Origin: Pyrococcus yayanosii CH1
Lineage (GTDB): Archaea; Methanobacteriota_B; Thermococci; Thermococcales; Thermococcaceae
Length of the DNA: 64,000 nt
Reading direction: 5' to 3'
NCBI RefSeq assembly: GCF_000215995.1
Contig: NC_015680.1
Span: 496,001-560,000, forward strand
The notes under the pieces were generated by a model that ran no database searches, was not told the DNA's origin, and saw only the letters and a program-made list of their open reading frames with translations. How positions within the stretch are numbered: the first letter of the stretch is position 1; each line of letters opens with the position of its first letter. The position numbers and the translations under genes are program-made. Positions 35,119 to 49,105 of the stretch are shown piece after piece.

Positions 35119-35526
35119 ATGAGGAGGTACCTGATAGTTAGGGTTAAGGAGGACGGGAAGCTGGAGCTTCCCTTGGATGTGGCCTATGAAGTGGGTCTCG
35201 TGAAGGGAGCATACTTCCTCGTCGAGGCAGACACCGACATAAAGGAGATGCACATCGAGAGAATAGCCTTGCCCGGGAAGGAGCTCGTTGAGATTGAGCT
35301 TGTCATCGAGGACAAGCCGGGTGTTCTGGCCAAGGTCAGCGGTGCCCTGGGAAGACTTGGTGTTAACATATTGTTCAACGAAGCAGAGGAACTCGAAACC
35401 CTCGGCCTTTCGGCATTCGTTGCAATCGTTGATGTTAGCGGCTCAAAAGTCACCCCGGAGGAGCTTGAGAAGGTGCTCGGATCAATTGAGGAAGTTAAGG
35501 AAGTCAAGGTGCTGAGAGTACAATAA
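35119..35526 (+). CDS. ACT-domain regulatory protein
   Basis: 135 residues from the ATG at 35119. The N-terminal part (1-45, VKEDGKLELPLDVAYEVGLVKGAYFLVEAD) looks like an AbrB/MazE-type strand-swapped barrel. The rest (about 50-130) is an ACT domain, ELVIEDKPGVLAKVSGALGRLGVNI, which usually binds an amino acid. Likely a small-molecule sensor; target unknown. TATA-like GACTTTAAATCT about 40 bp upstream. The 3' end overlaps the convergent Mrp subunit by 23 bp. Confidence 0.78.
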   Translation: MRRYLIVRVKEDGKLELPLDVAYEVGLVKGAYFLVEADTDIKEMHIERIALPGKELVEIELVIEDKPGVLAKVSGALGRLGVNILFNEAEELETLGLSAFVAIVDVSGSKVTPEELEKVLGSIEEVKEVKVLRVQ

Positions 35527-37006
35527 GAGCCGTTGTCAGCAACGAGAGGAGAGCTACCCCCTCCCCGACGTCTATGTCAAGCACCATCTCCCTGCGGGGC
35601 ATTCCGAAGAGCTTTAGGGCAAGGAAGACTATCAGCCCGAGAACGAGGAGGGCATCTGTGGGGGATACGTTGCCACCGAGGAGGACACCAAGGATCAAAG
35701 CCAATAGGGCTAGAACTAGGCCCGGCACGGTGTCTATGGGACCTGGACCGTGGCCGTAGCCACTCCGGAGGTAGTAGTTGACCTTGGTGAAAGAGGCGGC
35801 CGTCCCGACTGAGACACCGTAAATGGCTAACTTTTCCAAAGTCCCAACGGCTAGGATGCCTTTCACAACGCCACCAATGGATGGGCCAAAGCCCGCGATG
35901 GCAAGGCTTAGGAGGAGAACCGCTGTCAGGAGCACTGGCTCTCCCCTTGCTCCGAGGCGGGAGAGTTCTTTGCTCCGCCTGGCATCCGCAAGGGCACCTA
36001 GGGAGAGGAAGAGGCCCCCCTTGAAGATGGCGTGGGCTAGGGCATAAAGAGCAACCGCCCCCGGAAGGTTTAGGGCTATACCGAGGAGGACATATCCCAT
36101 CTGGCTAACGGTGTGGTAGGCGAGGAGCCTCTTGACGTCTGTCTGGAAGAGGGCCATAACGACACCGAATATCATAGAAGCAATCGCTATCAGTCTGAGG
36201 GCCAAGAGAAGGGCCTCTGGAATGCCCAGTGAGTACTGGAGGAGGAGCATCCCATAGATAGGTGCCTTCACGGCAAGGCCCGAGAGCACCGCGCTCACGT
36301 GGGTCTTAGCCTTAGAGTGGGTGTCGGGAAGCCAGACATGGAGGGGGAAGATTCCCGCCTTCAGGAGCAGGGATGCTAGGGCCACGGAGAGTGCAGCGAG
36401 AAGGGTCTTCGAGGGCTTGGCAACCTCCCTGATGAGCTCCGCGTTCAGGTAGCCGGTTTCTGCGTATATCACGCCAAGGGAGAATATGAAGAGATAGGAT
36501 GCCACGATGGAGAGCATAAGGTATTTAAAGGCAGCCTTTCTGGCTCCTTTTTCCGGTGAAAGGGCTATTAGGGCAAAGGACGCCACGGAAGCGAGCTCCA
36601 TGAAGATGTAGAAGTTGAAGAGGTCGAGTGATATGAACGCTCCAAGAAGGCCACCGTGCATGATGAGGAAGAGAGACAGCTCCTTCCAATCGTTTACCCT
36701 CCTGAGAGCGTAGAGGGCCGCGGCTCCGAACACAACAACTTCAGCAAGCAATAAAGGCCAGTTCAGCTCCCAAATCCCAACCTCTATACCAATGGGTTGG
36801 GGGTAGTTACCCACGATTACTCGTTCGTTCACAAAGGGGAGTATGATGAGGGGAGTTAGAGAGCCTATGGCGAAGAGAAACTTGATTTCAAGAAGTAGGG
36901 GGAATCTGAACCTCGCCCGTATCGAGCCCTCCCATTTCAGCGTTCCGAATAGATACACCAATAGGGCTGAGGTCAGGGGAAAAGCGGGAAGTAGTAGCGG
37001 GTTCAC
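35504..37006 (-). CDS. mrpD: Mrp antiporter subunit D-like (NADH dehydrogenase ND2/ND4-type proton channel)
   Basis: 500 residues, about 14 membrane helices. It has the antiporter-like core of complex I subunits: LPDTHSKAKTHVSAVLSGLAVKAPIYGM with the conserved Lys, FQTDVKRLLAYHTVSQMGYVLLG, and HAIFKGGLFLSLG. It moves H+ or Na+ within the Mrp complex. Last gene of the operon; it overlaps mrpC by 4 bp. Confidence 0.88.
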   Translation of the reverse strand: MNPLLLPAFPLTSALLVYLFGTLKWEGSIRARFRFPLLLEIKFLFAIGSLTPLIILPFVNERVIVGNYPQPIGIEVGIWELNWPLLLAEVVVFGAAALYALRRVNDWKELSLFLIMHGGLLGAFISLDLFNFYIFMELASVASFALIALSPEKGARKAAFKYLMLSIVASYLFIFSLGVIYAETGYLNAELIREVAKPSKTLLAALSVALASLLLKAGIFPLHVWLPDTHSKAKTHVSAVLSGLAVKAPIYGMLLLQYSLGIPEALLLALRLIAIASMIFGVVMALFQTDVKRLLAYHTVSQMGYVLLGIALNLPGAVALYALAHAIFKGGLFLSLGALADARRSKELSRLGARGEPVLLTAVLLLSLAIAGFGPSIGGVVKGILAVGTLEKLAIYGVSVGTAASFTKVNYYLRSGYGHGPGPIDTVPGLVLALLALILGVLLGGNVSPTDALLVLGLIVFLALKLFGMPRREMVLDIDVGEGVALLSLLTTALIVLSAP

Positions 37007-37287
37007 GCCCCATCCCCCCTCATCACGAGCCCGAGTGCAAGGGCGGTAACGGCCACGTCAACCACCAGCGTCGTGAGCATAAGGACGGCGGGAAGGGGAT
37101 CAACTGGAGTTCCAAATTCCTTGAGGGGAGGGAAGCTCCCCTTCTCTGCTCCTATGGCCACGAAAAAGAGGACTATCCCGAGAGACATCACATTAAGGGA
37201 GAGGATTTGCTTTAGCCTGTCCCTGTTGATGATTATTCCGGCAAGTCCAATCGTCATAACAAGTATGGCTATCTTCATCATTTTCAA
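37003..37287 (-). CDS. mrpC: Mrp antiporter subunit C (NuoK/ND4L-like)
   Basis: 94 residues, three membrane helices. RLKQILSLNVMSLGIVLFFVAIG and DPLPAVLMLTTLVVDVAVTALALGL match MnhC/NuoK, including the acid in the last helix region. Overlaps mrpB and mrpD by 4 bp each (ATGA type). Confidence 0.88.
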   Translation of the reverse strand: MKMMKIAILVMTIGLAGIIINRDRLKQILSLNVMSLGIVLFFVAIGAEKGSFPPLKEFGTPVDPLPAVLMLTTLVVDVAVTALALGLVMRGDGA

Positions 37288-37667
37288 TCCCTCTCTAGGA
37301 AGGCCGTTAGGGTGTAGAAGATTAATGTGAATGCCGAACCTACCTTCACCGCGACGAGAACGTTGAAAGGAACAACGTAGTAATTGGAGGGGGGAAGTGA
37401 GAGGGCGACAACAAAGAGAAGGAGAGTCACGACAGCTAGCCCAAAGGCACTCTCGAAGGTTCCGACGACCTTCTTCCTGAACCTCTTCCTGACCTTTTTG
37501 TAACCATGGGACGTTATTAAGAGGACTACAGCCACTGCAAGCACCACGCCGGCCTGGAATCCTCCACCAGGGGCGTCTGTACTATAAAGCATGAGGTATA
37601 TTGCATAGGTCACGAGGAAGGGGCTGACGAGCTTTGTTGTGGTTCTGGCAACTATGCTCATCTTCAC
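37284..37667 (-). CDS. mrpB: Mrp antiporter subunit B
   Basis: 127 residues, four membrane helices. VSPFLVTYAIYLMLYSTDAPGGGFQAGVVLAVAVVL is the hallmark of MnhB (APGGGFQAG). Overlaps its neighbours by 4 bp. Confidence 0.9.
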   Translation of the reverse strand: MKMSIVARTTTKLVSPFLVTYAIYLMLYSTDAPGGGFQAGVVLAVAVVLLITSHGYKKVRKRFRKKVVGTFESAFGLAVVTLLLFVVALSLPPSNYYVVPFNVLVAVKVGSAFTLIFYTLTAFLERD

Positions 37668-38125
37668 CTCCTACCACCTCCAAGAACGGCGGAGAAGCCT
37701 AGGGACGCTGCAAAGAGTAACAAAGCCTCGCCGACGCTGTCGTAGAGCCTCCAGCTGGCGAGTATCTCTGTAACTAGGTTGTTCATTCTCCAATTGACGA
37801 GATAATAGGCATAGCTCCCCCCCGGCGCCACCCTGTATTCAAGGGTTAAGAGGAAGAGACAGAGGGGAATCACAGCTAAGGCTAGGAAGAGCCTGAGGCC
37901 TCCTTCTTCTCTGACTGACTCGTGGGCAAAGATGAATAGGCCTATCACGAGGGCGCCGACCACTATGGCTGAGAGGGCCACGTCAGGGGCCCGTAGGAGT
38001 ATTAGGAGGAGTATGAAGGAAAGGCCTGCGAGGGAGTATGCCACGAGGGCAGGTAGGATCTTGCTATGGAGGATGACGAAAAGGGCTAGGAGGATTAACG
38101 TGCCTTCAAGGATTGTCCCAAGCAT
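37664..38125 (-). CDS. MbhD/MbhE-like subunit (equivalent to the C-terminus of MrpA)
   Basis: 153 residues from the ATG at 38125, which has GAGGTGG seven bases upstream. The N-terminal half (SLAGLSFILLLILLRAPDVALSAIVVGAL) is a DUF4040/MbhD domain; the C-terminal half (MNNLVTEILASWRLYDSVGEALLLF) resembles MbhE. In bacteria these are the tail of the large MrpA subunit; here they form a short separate protein. Overlaps mrpG by 20 bp. Confidence 0.8.
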   Translation of the reverse strand: MLGTILEGTLILLALFVILHSKILPALVAYSLAGLSFILLLILLRAPDVALSAIVVGALVIGLFIFAHESVREEGGLRLFLALAVIPLCLFLLTLEYRVAPGGSYAYYLVNWRMNNLVTEILASWRLYDSVGEALLLFAASLGFSAVLGGGRR

Positions 38126-38420
38126 ACATGTCCACCTCAACCTTCGGCTTAACACCGTATCTATAGGCCCCCTTTGCTATTGCATGGCTGATCATGGGGT
38201 TTATCATGGCGATGAACATGAGAAGGATTAATAGCTTCGCCTTCACAATTATCGGAGCGTCCGCCATGAGCGCGAGCCCAAAGACTATGCCCATCGCCCC
38301 TCCAGTGTCGCACTTCGTGGCCGCGTGGAGCCTCGTGTATACATCAGGGAACCTTATCACTCCGAGTGCCCCGAAGAACATCATTGAGTATCCAAAGAGT
38401 AGGAAGATAATCTCAAGCAC
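38106..38420 (-). CDS. mrpG: Mrp antiporter subunit G
   Basis: 104 residues, three membrane helices, with GALGVIRFPDVYTRLHAATKCDTGGAMGI, the diagnostic MnhG block (FPDVYTRLHA). Overlaps mrpF by 8 bp. Confidence 0.92.
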   Translation of the reverse strand: MLEIIFLLFGYSMMFFGALGVIRFPDVYTRLHAATKCDTGGAMGIVFGLALMADAPIIVKAKLLILLMFIAMINPMISHAIAKGAYRYGVKPKVEVDMYAWDNP

Positions 38421-38685
38421 GCCTACCCCTCCTCTCTAGGTATTTTGCAAGGAGAAGCCCGCTAACGGAGTTCACCATGAGCAGGACTATTGCGGCGTCT
38501 ATGAGGTACCATTCCTCCCATAGGACTGCGAGAACCGCTGTCATAACAACTACCTTTGTCGTAACGGTGTTGAGGCCAACCACCCTGTCGGGAAGCGTCG
38601 GGCCAACCATAACTCTATAAGTTGCCATGATTGTCGTCAGGAGGAGAAACCAGATTCCAGCTACCAGAATACCTTCTTGAGCCAT
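38413..38685 (-). CDS. mrpF: Mrp antiporter subunit F
   Basis: 90 residues, three membrane helices, with RVMVGPTLPDRVVGLNTV and WYLIDAAIVLLMVNSVSGLLLAKYL typical of MnhF (GPTLPDRVVALD). Overlaps mrpE by 25 bp. Confidence 0.92.
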   Translation of the reverse strand: MAQEGILVAGIWFLLLTTIMATYRVMVGPTLPDRVVGLNTVTTKVVVMTAVLAVLWEEWYLIDAAIVLLMVNSVSGLLLAKYLERRGRRA

Positions 38686-39266
38686 TCCTCCACGTCCCCC
38701 TTGATTATTTCTCCAGCCTTGTCAGGATTCAGGGTCTGAACATCTATCCAGTGGACGTAGAGGTATGTACCATCGAGCTTCTTCACCACGTCGAGCGTTA
38801 GGGTGCCCGGTGTCAGGGTTATGGAGTTCGCCAGTATAGTCACGCCAGTGTCGGAGTGGAGGTCGGTCTTAATCTTCACTATGCCCGGCCTTATGTCTCC
38901 GAGGAGGGCATGCTTGGCAACTTTTATGTTGCTCTCTAACAGGCGGAAGGCCATTATGATGAAGTACTGGGGGAGGTAGAGCAGGGCGAAGTATAGGAGC
39001 TTACCCACTAGGTGCTTGGAGTGCCTTATGTCATCAGTCAGGAAGTCCCGCATGAAGTATGCCACAATGCCCGTAGCGGGGAGGCCGAGGGCTAGGCCCT
39101 GAAGCGTGAGGTCGCTCGTTATGATGAGCCAGAAGACCATGAGGACTATCCAAGTTATCGCGAAGCGCTCCCAATCCGGCAACTTTTGGCTCTCGTAAAG
39201 TTCGTAGGTGAAGCGCTTTCTTACCTCCTCGATCCTTGACCTCAGGTAGAGAGGGACTCGGGTCAT
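38661..39266 (-). CDS. mrpE: Mrp antiporter subunit E
   Basis: 201 residues: a cytosolic N-terminal tail, two or three membrane helices, and a soluble C-terminal part with DLHSDTGVTILANSITLTPGTLTLDV, diagnostic of MnhE (NSITLTPGT). First gene of the Mrp operon; upstream is the Sir2 gene with 22 bp between its stop and this start, so readthrough from sir2 is possible. Confidence 0.92.
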   Translation of the reverse strand: MTRVPLYLRSRIEEVRKRFTYELYESQKLPDWERFAITWIVLMVFWLIITSDLTLQGLALGLPATGIVAYFMRDFLTDDIRHSKHLVGKLLYFALLYLPQYFIIMAFRLLESNIKVAKHALLGDIRPGIVKIKTDLHSDTGVTILANSITLTPGTLTLDVVKKLDGTYLYVHWIDVQTLNPDKAGEIIKGDVEEWLKKVFW

Positions 39267-40924: not shown

Positions 40925-41016
40925 CACCAGACATTAATCAAAACGCTTTCATAAAAATTTTACCATAACCCTCGGTTTTTTAAGCCCTTGGGAGCACTTT
41001 AATTTGGTGAAACAAG

Positions 41017-41436
41017 ATGCACGAGTGGGCCCTTGCCGATGCCATTGTAAGGACTGTGCTGGAGTATGCTGGAAAAGAAGGTGCTAGCAAGGTGCTAGCC
41101 ATTAGGGTGGTCCTCGGGGAGCTCCAAGACGTAAACGCCGAGGTCGTGGCCTTTGCGATGAGGGAACTCATGAAGGGGACTATCGCAGAGGGAGCCGAGA
41201 TAATCTTTGAGGAGGAAGAGGCAATCTTTAGGTGCCGCAACTGTGGCCACGTTTGGAAGCTCAAGGAGGTTAAGAACCGCCTCGACGAGCGCATCAGGGA
41301 GGACATCCATTTCATCCCGGAGGTCGTCCATGCCTTCCTTGCCTGTCCGAAATGCGGCAGCCACGACTTCGAGGTCGTCAAGGGAAGGGGAGTTTATATA
41401 GCGGGGATAAAAGTTGAGAAGGAGGGAGGGGCATGA
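41017..41436 (+). CDS. hypA: hydrogenase nickel insertion protein HypA
   Basis: 139 residues. N-terminal MHEWALADAIV has the nickel-binding His2 (MHE). Zinc finger CRNC at about 73 and CPKC at about 110. The longer zinc loop (about 33 residues between pairs) is typical of Thermococcales HypA. Coupled to hypB by ATGA overlap. Confidence 0.95.
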   Translation: MHEWALADAIVRTVLEYAGKEGASKVLAIRVVLGELQDVNAEVVAFAMRELMKGTIAEGAEIIFEEEEAIFRCRNCGHVWKLKEVKNRLDERIREDIHFIPEVVHAFLACPKCGSHDFEVVKGRGVYIAGIKVEKEGGA

Positions 41437-42158
41437 TAGATCCGAGGACCTCCGCCATAGAGGCTCGCCTTGAGAAGGTCAACCGCATAATACCCATCGT
41501 GAGTGGAAAAGGTGGGGTTGGGAAGTCGCTCATCTCGACGACGCTCGCCCTAATCTTGGCCGAGAAGGGCCACAGGGTTGGTCTGCTCGACCTCGACTTC
41601 CACGGAGCGAGCGATCATGTGATTCTTGGCTTCGAGCCGAAAGAGTTCCCCGAGGAGGACAGAGGAGTCGTCCCGGCCACGGTTCATGGCGTAAAGTTCA
41701 TGACAATCGCCTATTACACGGAGGACAGACCCACGCCCCTGAGGGGTGTGGAGGTAAGCGACGCCCTGATAGAGCTCCTTACAATAACGCGCTGGGACGA
41801 GCTGGATTACCTCATACTAGATATGCCGCCCGGCATGGGCGACCAGTTCCTCGATGTCCTGAGGTTCCTCAAGAGGGGCGAGTTCTTAGTTGTGGCAACC
41901 CCTTCGAAGCTGGCCCTCAACGTCGTCAGGAAGCTCATTGAGCTCCTGAAGGAGGAGGGCCACAAGGTTCTTGGAATCGTTGAGAACATGAAGCTGGATG
42001 AGGAAAGGGACGTGGAGGAGCTGGCGAGGGAGGTGGGCGTTCCTTACCTCGCGGGCATACCATTCTACGGGGACCTTGAAGAGAAGATAGGGAAGCCAGA
42101 GGAGCTCCTTAAGACGGAGTTTGCCGAGAGAATTAGGAAGCTCGCCGAGAGGCTCTAA
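41433..42158 (+). CDS. hypB: MinD/Mrp-type ATPase acting as archaeal HypB
   Basis: 241 residues. Deviant Walker A VSGKGGVGKSLIST near 23, then DLDFHGASDH and LILDMPPGMGDQFLDV, of the MinD/Mrp/NBP35 ATPase group. In Thermococcus kodakarensis the hypA-linked ATPase of this kind is the HypB that helps HypA insert nickel, replacing the GTPase used by bacteria. The overlap with hypA supports the same role here. Confidence 0.88.
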   Translation: MIDPRTSAIEARLEKVNRIIPIVSGKGGVGKSLISTTLALILAEKGHRVGLLDLDFHGASDHVILGFEPKEFPEEDRGVVPATVHGVKFMTIAYYTEDRPTPLRGVEVSDALIELLTITRWDELDYLILDMPPGMGDQFLDVLRFLKRGEFLVVATPSKLALNVVRKLIELLKEEGHKVLGIVENMKLDEERDVEELAREVGVPYLAGIPFYGDLEEKIGKPEELLKTEFAERIRKLAERL

Positions 42159-42235: not shown

Positions 42236-42973
42236 TTATGGGTTAGCGGTCAATATCCACAGGCCAAGGAGCACCAAGAGAAAGCCCGATAAGAGGGAGA
42301 GCTCCCGCGAATGCTTTACCATCGCCCTTGAAAAGGCCTTGCTCTCGCTTAAGCTTCCCATCGCGAAGAGTATCACGAAGAGCGGAAGGACAAAGATGAT
42401 GTTGTAGAGGGCCAAGAGGAGGTACGCCAGGGCTCCGCTCTTGGATATTATCGCAGCGTAAACGACGTATGGCCCCATGGAGCATGGCAAGAGAGTCGTG
42501 GAGACTGCGAAGCCGAGGAGCAGGGCACCCGCTACAGTTGCCTCTGTGGAGAAGGCCAGCTTTCTGAGCTTACCCTTCCCGACAACGCGGGACTTCTCGA
42601 AGAGGCCTGTAACTGCTGTGTAAAGGCCAAAGGCCATTGCAAGGTAACCCGCCCACACCGTTGGTATCTTGCCGGCGAGGATGACGAGGCCAACACCGAG
42701 GGTGTAGTAGGAGATGTAAACGGCCATTATGAAGAGCAGACCCACGAGGTAAACTTTCCCTTTTGGCAGGCCCTTGACGGAGAGGGCTATGAGAAATATC
42801 GTGTAAACGACGAAGGTGCAGGGGTTCACGGAGTCCGTGAGGGCAAGGGCAAGGAACTGGGGAATGAAACTAATCATTCCTAGAGCGCTGAGAGTGAGGG
42901 AGCTGAGGCCAAAGGATAACGCGAGGATCAGGAGGAGATACTTAAGCTCGGGCTTCTTTAGGAGCTCTCTCAT
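42236..42973 (-). CDS. CcdA/DsbD-type thiol-disulfide membrane protein
   Basis: 245 residues, seven to eight membrane segments. LTDSVNPCTFVVYTIFL and FAVSTTLLPCSMGPYVVYA carry the two Cys-Pro or Pro-Cys sites of the CcdA/DsbD fold, which carries reducing equivalents across the membrane. It may support disulfide chemistry or Fe/Ni enzyme maturation given its place in the hyp cluster. Divergent from hycI over a shared region with SurR-type sites. Confidence 0.82.
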   Translation of the reverse strand: MRELLKKPELKYLLLILALSFGLSSLTLSALGMISFIPQFLALALTDSVNPCTFVVYTIFLIALSVKGLPKGKVYLVGLLFIMAVYISYYTLGVGLVILAGKIPTVWAGYLAMAFGLYTAVTGLFEKSRVVGKGKLRKLAFSTEATVAGALLLGFAVSTTLLPCSMGPYVVYAAIISKSGALAYLLLALYNIIFVLPLFVILFAMGSLSESKAFSRAMVKHSRELSLLSGFLLVLLGLWILTANP

Positions 42974-43028
42974 TGGGGTTCCCAGAAATGGTTCGAAGCG
43001 TTGTTTTTTAGCCCTTTCTCAATGGAAG

Positions 43029-43045
43029 GTTTTGAACCGGAAGTT
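43029..43045 (+). promoter_or_regulatory. SurR consensus site in the ccdA-like/hycI divergent region
   Basis: GTTTTGAACCGGAAGTT is an exact match to GTTn3AACn5GTT, the published SurR consensus of Pyrococcus furiosus. It sits upstream of the TATA regions of both flanking genes (minus-strand GGGCTAAAAAAC near 43010; plus-strand AATTTTTAAG near 43110), where SurR acts as activator of hydrogenase genes. Confidence 0.6.
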
Positions 43046-43096
43046 GAAGAATTTGACACCCCAGGACTCCCTGTTGAGATGGTAGGTAAACCCGAG

Positions 43097-43105
43097 GTTT
43101 GAAAC
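43097..43105 (+). promoter_or_regulatory. second SurR half-site before hycI
   Basis: GTTTGAAAC fits GTTn3AAC and lies just upstream of the hycI TATA-like AATTTTTAAG. The trailing GTT of the full consensus is absent. Confidence 0.45.
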
Positions 43106-43151
43106 TCCCCAATTTTTAAGCTCCCCCATAATAACTTCCCTGGGGATTAAG

Positions 43152-43652
43152 ATGCGTGAGGACCGAGAGATGGAACTCTGGGAGCTCCTTCGGAATGCGG
43201 GTCGGGTAGTTATCTGTGGCATGGGAAACGAGATGAGGGGCGATGACGCCTTCGGACTCCTCGTCGTGGAAAAGCTAAGGGAGCTTGTGAAAAGTCGAGA
43301 TATTCTCATACTCAACTGCGGAGAAGTTCCCGAGAGCTACACGGGAAAAATAGCTTCCTTCAAGCCTGACCTAGTCGTCTTCGTGGACGCCGTTGAGTTC
43401 GGGGGGAGGCATGGAGATATGATAGTGGCAGACCCGGAGGATACTATAGGGGAAGCCATCTCAACTCACGGCCTGCCCCTGCGGTTCCTCGTCCAATACC
43501 TGAAGGAGAGGACGGGAGCTCGTTTCATCCTCATAGGGTGCCAGCCCCGTTTTCTTGGCCTCTTCGAGGAGCCGAGCGATGTGATAAGGGAAAGGGCCGA
43601 GCAGCTCGCGAGGGCGCTTGCGGGGGCACTAGGGGGCAGATCCGATGATTAG
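43152..43652 (+). CDS. hycI: hydrogenase maturation endopeptidase (HycI/HyaD family)
   Basis: 166 residues. GMGNEMRGDDAFG (about 24) has the first Ni-binding acid, VVFVDAVEFGG the second, and STHGLPL the His. It clips the C-terminal extension of the NiFe large subunit after metal insertion. ATG at 43152 (a second at 43170). Overlaps the next gene by 8 bp. Confidence 0.9.
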   Translation: MREDREMELWELLRNAGRVVICGMGNEMRGDDAFGLLVVEKLRELVKSRDILILNCGEVPESYTGKIASFKPDLVVFVDAVEFGGRHGDMIVADPEDTIGEAISTHGLPLRFLVQYLKERTGARFILIGCQPRFLGLFEEPSDVIRERAEQLARALAGALGGRSDD

Positions 43653-45103: not shown

Positions 45104-45337
45104 TTTTCATCCCTTTTCTTCCTTTTCTTCTTTATGTGGACGTATTCGATAGGCACTTACATAATCTTGCTTGAGATTCAGCATTTTTTTAAGAAGATTC
45201 CGACTTAATCTTGGGCGATTTCATAGGCCTTTGCGACGTCTAAAAACCCTGAATTCCCGAGAGGTGCTTGGCTATAAACCATTAGTTTTGAAAAAATTCT
45301 AAAAATCCCGGTATCCAAACTTGGGTGGGTGAAAGGG

Positions 45338-46694: not shown

Positions 46695-46696
46695 CA

Positions 46697-46735
46697 CCAA
46701 AGGTTCAAAACTCCACTCTCGTTTTCAACTTTTGG
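46697..46735 (+). promoter_or_regulatory. inverted repeat with two SurR-type half-sites before hypF
   Basis: CCAAAGGTTCAAAAC, nine bases, then GTTTTCAACTTTTGG: 14 of 15 positions pair. Inside, GTTCAAAAC (46703-46711) and GTTTTCAAC (46721-46729) both fit GTTn3AAC, spaced nine bases. It begins 2 bp after the hypD stop and precedes an AT-rich hypF promoter. It could also form an RNA hairpin that attenuates hypD transcripts. Confidence 0.55.
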
Positions 46736-46786
46736 TTTTAGAAACGCATAAAGGCTGGAAAGACTAAAGGAAAACGGGTGGATGGA

Positions 46787-49105
46787 ATGAGGGCCTACCG
46801 CATCAAGGTCCAGGGTATAGTTCAGGCTGTTGGCTTTCGCCCCTTCGTTTATCGAATAGCCCACGCCCATAATCTCAGGGGCTACGTGAGGAACCTCGGC
46901 GATGCCGGCGTCGAGATAGTTGTTGAGGGGCGGGAGGAGGACATAGAGGCTTTTCTCAGAGATCTCTACACGAGGAAGCCTCCCCTCGCGAGGATAGACC
47001 GGTTAGAGAGGAAGGAGATACCGCCACAGGGGTTCGACCGCTTCTACATTGAGAAGAGCTCCCAAGAGGGAGAGGGTGGGAACTCGATTATTCCACCGGA
47101 CATAGCTATATGTGAGGACTGCCTAAGAGAGCTATTCGACCCGGCGAACAAGCGCTATATGTATCCCTTTATCGTCTGCACCAACTGCGGCCCAAGGTTC
47201 ACGATAATAGAGGATTTGCCCTATGACAGGGAGAATACAACCATGAAAGAATTCTCTATGTGCGACTTCTGCGAGAGCGAATATAAAGACCCGCTTAACA
47301 GGCGCTATCACGCCGAACCCGTCTGCTGTCCCGTCTGCGGGCCGAGCTATAGGCTTTACACAAACGACGGGCAGGAGATAACCGGCGACCCACTGAAAAA
47401 GGCGGCCAAGCTTATAGACAAAGGTTACATCGTTGCCATCAAGGGAATCGGAGGAATACACCTTGCTTGCGATGCGACGAGGGAAGATATAGTTGCAGAG
47501 CTCAGGAGGAGAACCTTTAGGCCCCAGAAACCCTTTGCCATAATGGCCAGGGACCTGGAGACCGTCAAAAGCTTTGCCTACGTGAGCCCGGAGGAAGAGG
47601 AGGAGCTCATGAGCTACAGAAGGCCTATTATTGCCCTGAGGAAGAAGGACCCGTTTCCTTTGCCCGATAACCTTGCTCCAGGTCTCCACACAATCGGTGT
47701 CATGCTTCCCTACGCTGCCACTCATTACCTTCTCTTCCACCACTCGAAGACGCCCGTTTACGTCATGACCTCGGCAAACTATCCCGGCAAGCCCATGGTC
47801 AAAGACAACGAGGAGGCCTTTAAGGAGCTGAGGGAGATTGCGGACTACTTCCTGCTCCATAACAGGAAGATACTGAACAGGGCCGATGACAGCGTAGTGA
47901 GGTTCGTGGACGGGAAGAGAGCCGTTATAAGGCGCTCCCGTGGATTTGTCCCGCTCCCGATAGAGATTCCCTTTGAGTACAACGGTCTCGCCGTCGGAGC
48001 CGAGCTCATGAACGCCTTCGGCATCGCGAAGGGCGGTAAGGTTTACCCAAGCCAGTATATAGGCAACACGTCGAAGGTGGAAGTGCTGGAGTTTATGCGT
48101 GAAGCCATAGCACACTTCAGGAGGATACTCCGCGTCAAGGAGCTCGACCTCATAGTGGCCGACCTTCATCCGAGCTACAACACTACGAAGCTGGCGATGG
48201 AGATTGCCAACGAGCTAAACGTGGAGTTCCTCCAGGTTCAGCACCACTACGCTCACGTGGCAAGTGTCATGGCCGAGCATGGCCTCGAAGAGGTTGTGGG
48301 AATAGCCCTAGACGGTGTCGGCTACGGAACGGACGGGAAGGTCTGGGGTGGCGAGGTAATCTACCTGGGCTACGAGGACGTGGAAAGGCTGGCTCATATA
48401 GCCTACTACCCACTGCCAGGCGGCGACATAGCAAGCTACTACCCGCTAAGGGCCCTGATGGGAATATTGAGCAAGGTTTACGATGTGGAGGAGCTGGAGG
48501 GAATAATCAGGGGTTACTGCCCGAGGGCCATTGAGAGCCTAAAGTACGGGGAGACCGAGTTCAAGGTTGCCCTCGGCCAGCTCGTGAGGGGAATAAACGT
48601 TGCCTACGCCTCTTCCACGGGCCGCGTCCTTGACGCTCTCGCAGTCCTCCTCAACGTGGTCTACAGGAGGCATTACGAGGGAGAGCCTGCCATGAAGCTC
48701 GAGAGCTTTGCCATGAAGGGTAAGAACGACCTCAAGCTTGAGGTGCCCGTTGAGGGGAAGACCATAAAAGTGGAGGAGCTCTTCGTGGACGTGCTAGACC
48801 TCCTCGAGAAGGCAAGCCCAGCCGACATCGCATACTCGGTCCATATTGCGATGGCTAGGACCTTTGCAGAGGTTGCCGTCGAGAAGGCGAGGGAATTTGG
48901 CGTTAAGGCTGTCGCCCTAAGCGGCGGCGTTGCCTATAACGAGCTCATAACGAAGACTATAAGAAAAATCGTAGAGGCGAACGGCCTGAGGTTCTACTCA
49001 ACCTACGAGGTCCCAAGGGGCGACAACGGGATAAACGTCGGCCAGGCCTTCCTCGGCGGTCTCTATCTAGAAGGCTACCTCAGCAGGGACGACCTGACCA
49101 TGTGA
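46787..49105 (+). CDS. hypF: carbamoyltransferase HypF
   Basis: 772 residues. Acylphosphatase domain (1-90, GIVQAVGFRPFVYRIA), paired zinc fingers (about 105-180, CEDC, CTNC, CDFC, CCPVC), YrdC domain (about 200-385), and a Kae1-like carbamoyltransferase (about 390-772) with VQHHYAHVASVMAEHG and ALSGGVAYN. It makes the thiocarboxamide of HypE from carbamoyl phosphate. ATG at 46787 with GGGTGGATGGA; a GTG three codons earlier lies in that site. The 3' end overlaps the amidohydrolase by 31 bp. Confidence 0.95.
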   Translation: MRAYRIKVQGIVQAVGFRPFVYRIAHAHNLRGYVRNLGDAGVEIVVEGREEDIEAFLRDLYTRKPPLARIDRLERKEIPPQGFDRFYIEKSSQEGEGGNSIIPPDIAICEDCLRELFDPANKRYMYPFIVCTNCGPRFTIIEDLPYDRENTTMKEFSMCDFCESEYKDPLNRRYHAEPVCCPVCGPSYRLYTNDGQEITGDPLKKAAKLIDKGYIVAIKGIGGIHLACDATREDIVAELRRRTFRPQKPFAIMARDLETVKSFAYVSPEEEEELMSYRRPIIALRKKDPFPLPDNLAPGLHTIGVMLPYAATHYLLFHHSKTPVYVMTSANYPGKPMVKDNEEAFKELREIADYFLLHNRKILNRADDSVVRFVDGKRAVIRRSRGFVPLPIEIPFEYNGLAVGAELMNAFGIAKGGKVYPSQYIGNTSKVEVLEFMREAIAHFRRILRVKELDLIVADLHPSYNTTKLAMEIANELNVEFLQVQHHYAHVASVMAEHGLEEVVGIALDGVGYGTDGKVWGGEVIYLGYEDVERLAHIAYYPLPGGDIASYYPLRALMGILSKVYDVEELEGIIRGYCPRAIESLKYGETEFKVALGQLVRGINVAYASSTGRVLDALAVLLNVVYRRHYEGEPAMKLESFAMKGKNDLKLEVPVEGKTIKVEELFVDVLDLLEKASPADIAYSVHIAMARTFAEVAVEKAREFGVKAVALSGGVAYNELITKTIRKIVEANGLRFYSTYEVPRGDNGINVGQAFLGGLYLEGYLSRDDLTM

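Follow-up and report, generated by a model that had tools for sequence, protein, structure and literature searches.

The window analysed, the whole stretch of 64,000 nucleotides, contains a hydrogenase-maturation neighbourhood with the gene order hypA, a MinD-type ATPase gene, a CcdA-like gene, hycI, an acetyltransferase gene, a mobA-like gene, hypC, hypD and hypF. The hypC and mobA-like genes were named by eye. The genes on which this analysis centres are:

41017-41436, plus strand: hypA, matching Pfam HypA
41433-42158, plus strand: MinD/Mrp-type ATPase gene after hypA, identified by profile matches and presumably the hypB of Thermococcales
42236-42973, minus strand: gene of a CcdA/DsbD-TM-like membrane protein of 245 aa, with the invariant residues C52 (NPCTF) and C164 (LLPCS)
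43152-43652, plus strand: hycI, hydrogenase maturation protease, over the cut-off of Pfam HycI
46778-49105, plus strand: hypF, identified by Pfam

A gene run for a multi-subunit Na+/H+ antiporter of the Mrp/Mnh type (35504-39266) adjoins the maturation cluster, and no hydrogenase subunit genes were noticed as its neighbours.

SurR-type sites in the shared spacer

The CcdA-like gene (minus strand) and hycI (plus strand) flank a spacer of 178 bp (42974-43151). In the Thermococcales, SurR is regarded as the master switch between hydrogen and sulfide metabolism. Its recognition motif, as given in the literature, is GTTn3AACn5GTT, and two exact 17-bp copies, each with all nine fixed bases, were found inside the spacer. 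The sites and promoter elements of the neighbourhood are:

40967-40983, minus strand: SurR-site remnant before hypA with two mismatches (motif scan; no site with 0-1 mismatch there)
43003-43020, minus strand: predicted BRE/TATA-like elements of the CcdA-like gene, GAGAAAGG then GCTAAAAAAC in gene sense, from sequence and column conservation
43029-43045, plus strand: exact SurR consensus 1, GTTTTGAACCGGAAGTT, assigned to the CcdA-like gene, with its core upstream of the BRE/TATA-like elements
43089-43105, minus strand: exact SurR consensus 2, GTTTCAAACCTCGGGTT, assigned to hycI
43111-43120, plus strand: predicted TATA-like tract of hycI, AATTTTTAAG, common to hypA promoters of relatives
45271-45293, unstranded: two overlapping one-mismatch SurR sites before hypC (motif scan)
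46695-46711, minus strand: SurR site with one mismatch before hypF, GTTTTGAACCTTTGGTG; 6 of the 7 other Pyrococcus-group genomes carry an exact copy
46721-46737, plus strand: exact SurR consensus 3, before hypF (motif scan)

The sequence-only reading of this DNA had proposed an exact SurR consensus at 43029-43045, and GTTTTGAACCGGAAGTT does match the motif at every fixed base. It had also pointed to a half-site before hycI, GTTTGAAAC (43097-43105). That site is present; however, it is more than a half, being the core of the full exact site on the minus strand at 43089-43105. The assignment of the spacer to SurR is supported by the sequence and by the genome comparison described below.

The 17-bp matches might be due to chance. 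Several exact matches of the complete genome (1,716,818 bases) fall within genes and some of these look accidental; the whole genome contains 27 exact sites against 10 for a reversed control pattern, and therefore about one third of the matches may be accidental. The short half-site GTTn3AAC was rejected as evidence, since it is barely enriched (16 in the window against 10.1 expected). Dinucleotide shuffling of the spacer, repeated 20,000 times, produced one site in 73 cases and two sites in 1. The 64-kb window holds 3 exact sites, where 100 dinucleotide shuffles gave 0.21 on average and never as many as 3. A chance origin, rejected by these shuffles and by the conservation across genomes, is given a negligible probability.

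SurR is encoded in this genome and intact (L144), with 416.8 bits against NF047699 (cut-off 250) and CMEC as its CxxC motif. An exact site is located between surR and pdo; further exact sites precede the genes for sulfhydrogenase I beta, a CoA-disulfide reductase (Nsr-like) and an Mbs-like antiporter subunit, and another lies between an frhA-like gene and a thioredoxin-reductase gene (trxR). These five locations were treated as positive controls. Identity of the motif does not name the protein, and another regulator with the same operator might use the sites; however, the motif is the one given in the literature and is found between surR and pdo as well as upstream of known SurR-type targets, so that such a regulator appears very unlikely.

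The CcdA-like protein, its partner and its upstream site

The 245-aa protein scored 11.7 bits against DsbD_2 (PF13386), under the cut-off of 24.9 (E 0.24), and a Pfam search returned no DsbD_TM (PF02683) match for it. Because the profile score is under the curated cut-off, the protein is called CcdA-like and is no member of the CcdA/DsbD_TM family by that measure. Two of 26 relatives match DsbD_TM (best E 8.8e-5), and in a genome search a number of relatives match PF02683 under the cut-off. C52 and C164 are invariant in all 26; they occur one per half, each beside a proline, and both lie in predicted helices. The predicted structure is a helical bundle (pLDDT 89.5). A PDB fold search with this model gave a best Z of 7.3 and no match with E <1e-3, which shows neither a new fold nor the absence of CcdA. 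Nothing was found by a PDB sequence search with the family profile, no internal repeat was detected by profile comparison of the two halves, and a plasmid search gave one weak DsbD match (E 0.9).

The family profile also finds a protein of genome G093 (E 6.5e-31; L215 555-1724). This protein of 389 aa consists of an N-terminal thioredoxin-like part with CPHC fused to a C-terminal CcdA-like part, and it scores 25.8 bits against DsbD_TM as a protein and 27.9 as a frame in the genome search (cut-off 27.1). The genome of the window has a second, degenerate CcdA-like frame (L216 829-1407; G000:C1 near 769388-769915), which contains a stop within the match and lacks the NPC cysteine motif.

Of 87 loci examined, 65 hold a gene for a thioredoxin-fold protein, secreted or lipid-anchored, and in 64 of these it immediately precedes the CcdA-like gene. 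The genome of the window has its own copy of this partner, apart from the CcdA-like gene (G000:C1:745621-746058), which is over the cut-off of Thioredoxin_2 and carries a lipobox-like LGC and CPHC. At one relative's locus (L064 2218-2568), a small cytosolic glutaredoxin/thioredoxin-like gene (CPYC) is convergent to the CcdA-like gene, and its product is a possible cytosolic electron donor.

The comparison set was one family of 94 genomes, in groups that we take to be Pyrococcus (g1), Palaeococcus (g2), Thermococcus (g3), the T. litoralis/sibiricus group (g4) and the T. barophilus group (g5). The CcdA-like gene was found in 87 of them. A SurR site within 150 bp upstream was exact in 57, one-mismatch in 8 and absent in 21 of 86 genomes; a gene fragment without upstream sequence (L131) was left out, which reduced the raw exact matches from 58 to 57 and the genomes from 87 to 86. 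The site was exact in 5 and one-mismatch in 3 of the 8 Pyrococcus-group promoters, one-mismatch in both Palaeococcus promoters, and exact in 52, one-mismatch in 3 and absent in 1 of the 56 Thermococcus-group promoters. Thus only one of 66 genomes of g1-g3 lacks it. No site was found in the scanned 150 bp in g4 (0/13) or g5 (0/7), and control of the CcdA-like gene by SurR is therefore not universal among the genomes compared. The genomes are related, so that the counts are not independent events.

The shuffle test was performed on 85 of the 87 promoters (those shorter than 150 bp and L131 were left out), and the 57 exact sites compare with an average of 0.25, and at most 3, over 100 rounds. Twenty-six permuted motifs gave 0-14 matches on the same promoters, the 14 coming from one motif whose matches overlap the real site at an offset of one base. 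The whole genomes of the Thermococcus group contain 16-55 exact sites each (for example, 55 against 4 for the control in G023, presumably T. kodakarensis, and 34 against 13 in G025), and a chance site in a given 150-bp promoter is therefore well under 1%. It is this conservation that disfavours chance for the site of the CcdA-like gene. Summed over seven g5 genomes, the long motif was not enriched (190 against 206 for the reversed control), and over thirteen g4 genomes it was little enriched (303 against 226), which fits the absence of the site before the CcdA-like gene there. The exact long motif was not enriched over the reversed control in G086-G092 (g5) and G093 (g6). The SurR operator may be looser in these genomes. 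SurR has been studied in T. barophilus.

The gaps between the partner and the CcdA-like genes follow the same grouping. A gap of usually about 60 bp separates the two genes in g2 and g3 and contains the SurR site, whereas the g4 and g5 genes run into each other, by 23 bp in most cases, and have no site. A scan of the 200 bp before the partner gene itself, allowing 0-1 mismatch, detected a SurR site in none of 65 loci; the start codons used were a script's guess, and contig ends truncate at least two of the genes.

In the other Pyrococcus-group genomes (two loci read), a truA-like/SKVVRF-type pair precedes the CcdA-like gene and an fmdE-like gene follows it. At this ancestral place in the genome of the window the upstream neighbours are present, and no CcdA-like gene follows them; its present position is between the hypA-linked ATPase gene and hycI, and the SurR site has been retained. 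Since the gene occupies differing places yet keeps its site, the site appears to travel with the gene. In G054 the CcdA-like gene is divergent from hypA and one overlapping SurR site pair is common to both. In G010 and G011 the CcdA-like gene and hycI are convergent neighbours. In two Pyrococcus-group loci (L017 and L016), the CcdA-like gene is followed on its 3' side by the fmdE-like gene and then a transporter binding-protein gene, which have an overlapping exact SurR site pair of their own; this gene pair is a candidate for a further SurR operon.

These data bear on whether SurR might control only the hydrogenase maturation gene, with the CcdA-like gene as a bystander that happens to share the spacer. 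Maturation genes have already been reported to be under SurR control (PMC4463584, citing Lipscomb 2009 and Yang 2010), and the divergent adjacency of the CcdA-like gene and hycI occurs only in this genome among those compared. However, 65 of 86 genomes have the site before their CcdA-like gene, mostly far from hycI and with a fixed spacing to BRE/TATA, and we regard mere bystander status as unlikely.

Promoter layout and direction of control

According to PMC12401011, a SurR motif upstream of BRE/TATA is associated with activation at mbh, and a motif overlapping BRE/TATA with repression at mbs. In the window, the order in the sense of the CcdA-like gene is GTTCAAAAC, GAGAAAGG, GCTAAAAAAC. In an alignment of 60 CcdA-like promoters with the operator at columns 0-16, anchored on the core (which favours the motif), conservation is 95-100% for the BRE-like AAA (columns 21-23) and 87-97% for the TATA-like AAAA (columns 29-32). 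The SurR site thus lies wholly upstream of the BRE-like columns at a fixed spacing, a position that fits activation.

The hypF promoters of the Pyrococcus group have a matching layout. An exact site stands at -56/-57 in 8 of 8 genomes, including this one, and a second site at -82/-83 is exact in 6 and has one mismatch in 2 of the 8; one hypF fragment (L234) was left out of the count. In T. onnurineus, HypF on sulfur was at 0.26, 0.41 and 0.18 of its CO, formate and starch levels, with p values of 0.01, 0.06 and 0.00, respectively (PMC4463584, Table 3), and the same source gives the HypF, HypE and HycI proteins as lower on sulfur. Because the spacing of the CcdA-like promoters resembles that of hypF, and HypF falls on sulfur in T. 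onnurineus, the analogy suggests that the CcdA-like gene would be activated by SurR without sulfur.

SurR control of the CcdA-like gene was not found in the literature searched, a scope that includes PMC12162507, PMC8595942, PMC4247193, PMC4463584, PMC6981617, PMC12401011, PMC4870337 and PMC4890121 and excludes the main SurR papers (Lipscomb 2009, 2017). The 'TK2006 hypothetical' was considered as a possible ccdA-like gene and rejected; the CcdA-like gene lies elsewhere in G023. According to PMC4247193, TK2006 is in the no-sulfur top 25 of T. kodakarensis and absent from the sulfur top 25.

The promoter of hycI is less simple. HycI is identified by PF01750 (45.8 bits, cut-off 23) and TIGR00072 (100.6, cut-off 47.45), and is just under the cut-off of the HycI equivalog TIGR00142 (111.9 against 119.1). 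In Thermococcus-like genomes, hycI mostly follows hypA and the ATPase gene. Of the hypA promoters of 51 genomes outside the Pyrococcus group, 25 have an exact SurR site and 18 a site with one mismatch, almost always on the minus strand at -61 to -67; a site was found in 4 of 8 hypA promoters of the Pyrococcus group. No exact site was found directly before hycI in 61 other genomes, where the hycI starts were estimated; two Thermococcales MAG loci and four more distant ones, obtained by searching contigs for hycI, were not used. All 17 bases of the hycI site of the window (43089-43105) recur unchanged in the hypA-promoter site of two Thermococcus-group loci (L026 and L030). Local alignment of the hycI promoter with hypA promoters gave a best score of 52, where shuffles reached 26 at most; masking the site lowered it to 26, which is not above shuffles (null maximum 30), and the likeness therefore rests on the site and the TATA tract. 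Judged from these sequences, a common descent of the hycI and hypA promoters is likely. The simplest reading is that a rearrangement left hycI with a hypA-type SurR promoter, and hypA lost its own. HycI here shows at most 73% identity to the Thermococcus-group HycI against 52-59% within its own genus, and HypA and HypF are native-like (81-86%). The hycI gene may have been acquired or retained separately.

Both sites might be true SurR operators that repress one or both genes, so that transcription would be on with sulfur. The site at 43089-43105 ends 7 bp before the TATA-like tract of hycI, and its position alone is ambiguous and compatible with repression, given that SurR represses where its motif overlaps BRE/TATA (PMC12401011). 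In Palaeococcus pacificus, HypF was 10.8-fold higher on sulfur, opposite to the expected sign (PMC6981617). However, the site of the CcdA-like gene is wholly upstream of the BRE-like columns; in T. onnurineus, the levels of HypF, HypE, HycI and the ATPase preceding HycI are reported to be reduced on sulfur, and relatives of these sulfur-lowered genes carry the same two site layouts. In PMC4463584, the ATPase has sulfur ratios of 0.78, 0.53 and 0.47, and HycI is listed as lower on sulfur, with detection only on formate. Repression of either gene is accordingly held to be a minor possibility, and activation of both genes is preferred.

Proposed switch and comparison with known systems

The spacer is probably a divergent promoter with two SurR operators, one for each gene, both activated without sulfur. 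From the sites, their conservation, the presence of SurR and the promoter spacing, all read from the DNA, we infer binding, activation, an electron path and a physiological use. Without elemental sulfur, reduced SurR would bind at 43029-43045, immediately before the BRE/TATA that serves the CcdA-like gene, and at 43089-43105, immediately before the hycI TATA, and the bound SurR would recruit transcription of both genes. Sulfur would oxidise the CxxC of SurR, which would leave the DNA, and both transcripts would fall. The expression of hycI might thus be kept in step with the hydrogenases that are matured by HycI.

The CcdA-like protein probably passes electrons from cytosolic thiols across the membrane to the extracytoplasmic thioredoxin-fold lipoprotein, and thiol reducing power would then be exported mainly in the absence of sulfur. 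We tentatively propose, at close to even chances, that SurR also governs this export of reducing power via a CcdA-like relay that feeds the thioredoxin lipoprotein and is on without sulfur. With sulfur or polysulfide outside, the relay would be shut, perhaps sparing cytosolic reductant from external sulfur. This SurR control would be absent from the lineages in which the relay and partner genes overlap. A functional link of the CcdA-like protein to the disulfide of SurR itself is speculative.

A conserved SurR site before the CcdA-like gene would extend the SurR switch to the thiol-disulfide balance across the membrane; nothing on this balance across the archaeal membrane was found in the literature searched. 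The g4 and g5 genomes, in which the site is absent, provide natural negative controls, and T. kodakarensis and Pyrococcus species could serve as model species for tests. The case also shows a gene that brought its operator along to a new location, and a maturation gene that kept a SurR site though parted from its usual operon promoter.

Three known systems are comparable. The CcdA and DsbD transmembrane domains (PF02683, PF13386) share with the window protein a multi-helix membrane architecture, two invariant proline-flanked cysteines and a thioredoxin-fold secreted partner, to which the CcdA-like part is fused in G093; whereas the window protein is under the Pfam cut-off. The hypA-hypB-hycI operon promoter of the Thermococcus group has the same 17-bp site (identical in two genomes) on the same strand, with a similar TATA tract and a similar distance (-63 for the hycI site, within the range of the hypA sites); whereas here the site precedes hycI and hypA has lost its own. 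The SurR regulon of the Thermococcales (mbh, the sulfhydrogenases, mbs, pdo, nsr and surR) likewise has the exact long consensus, a SurR with CxxC, sites upstream of BRE/TATA and reported sulfur-responsive maturation genes. In contrast to that regulon as known, a CcdA-like membrane thiol-transfer gene would be added here, and hycI would have a SurR promoter of its own in place of the hypA operon promoter.
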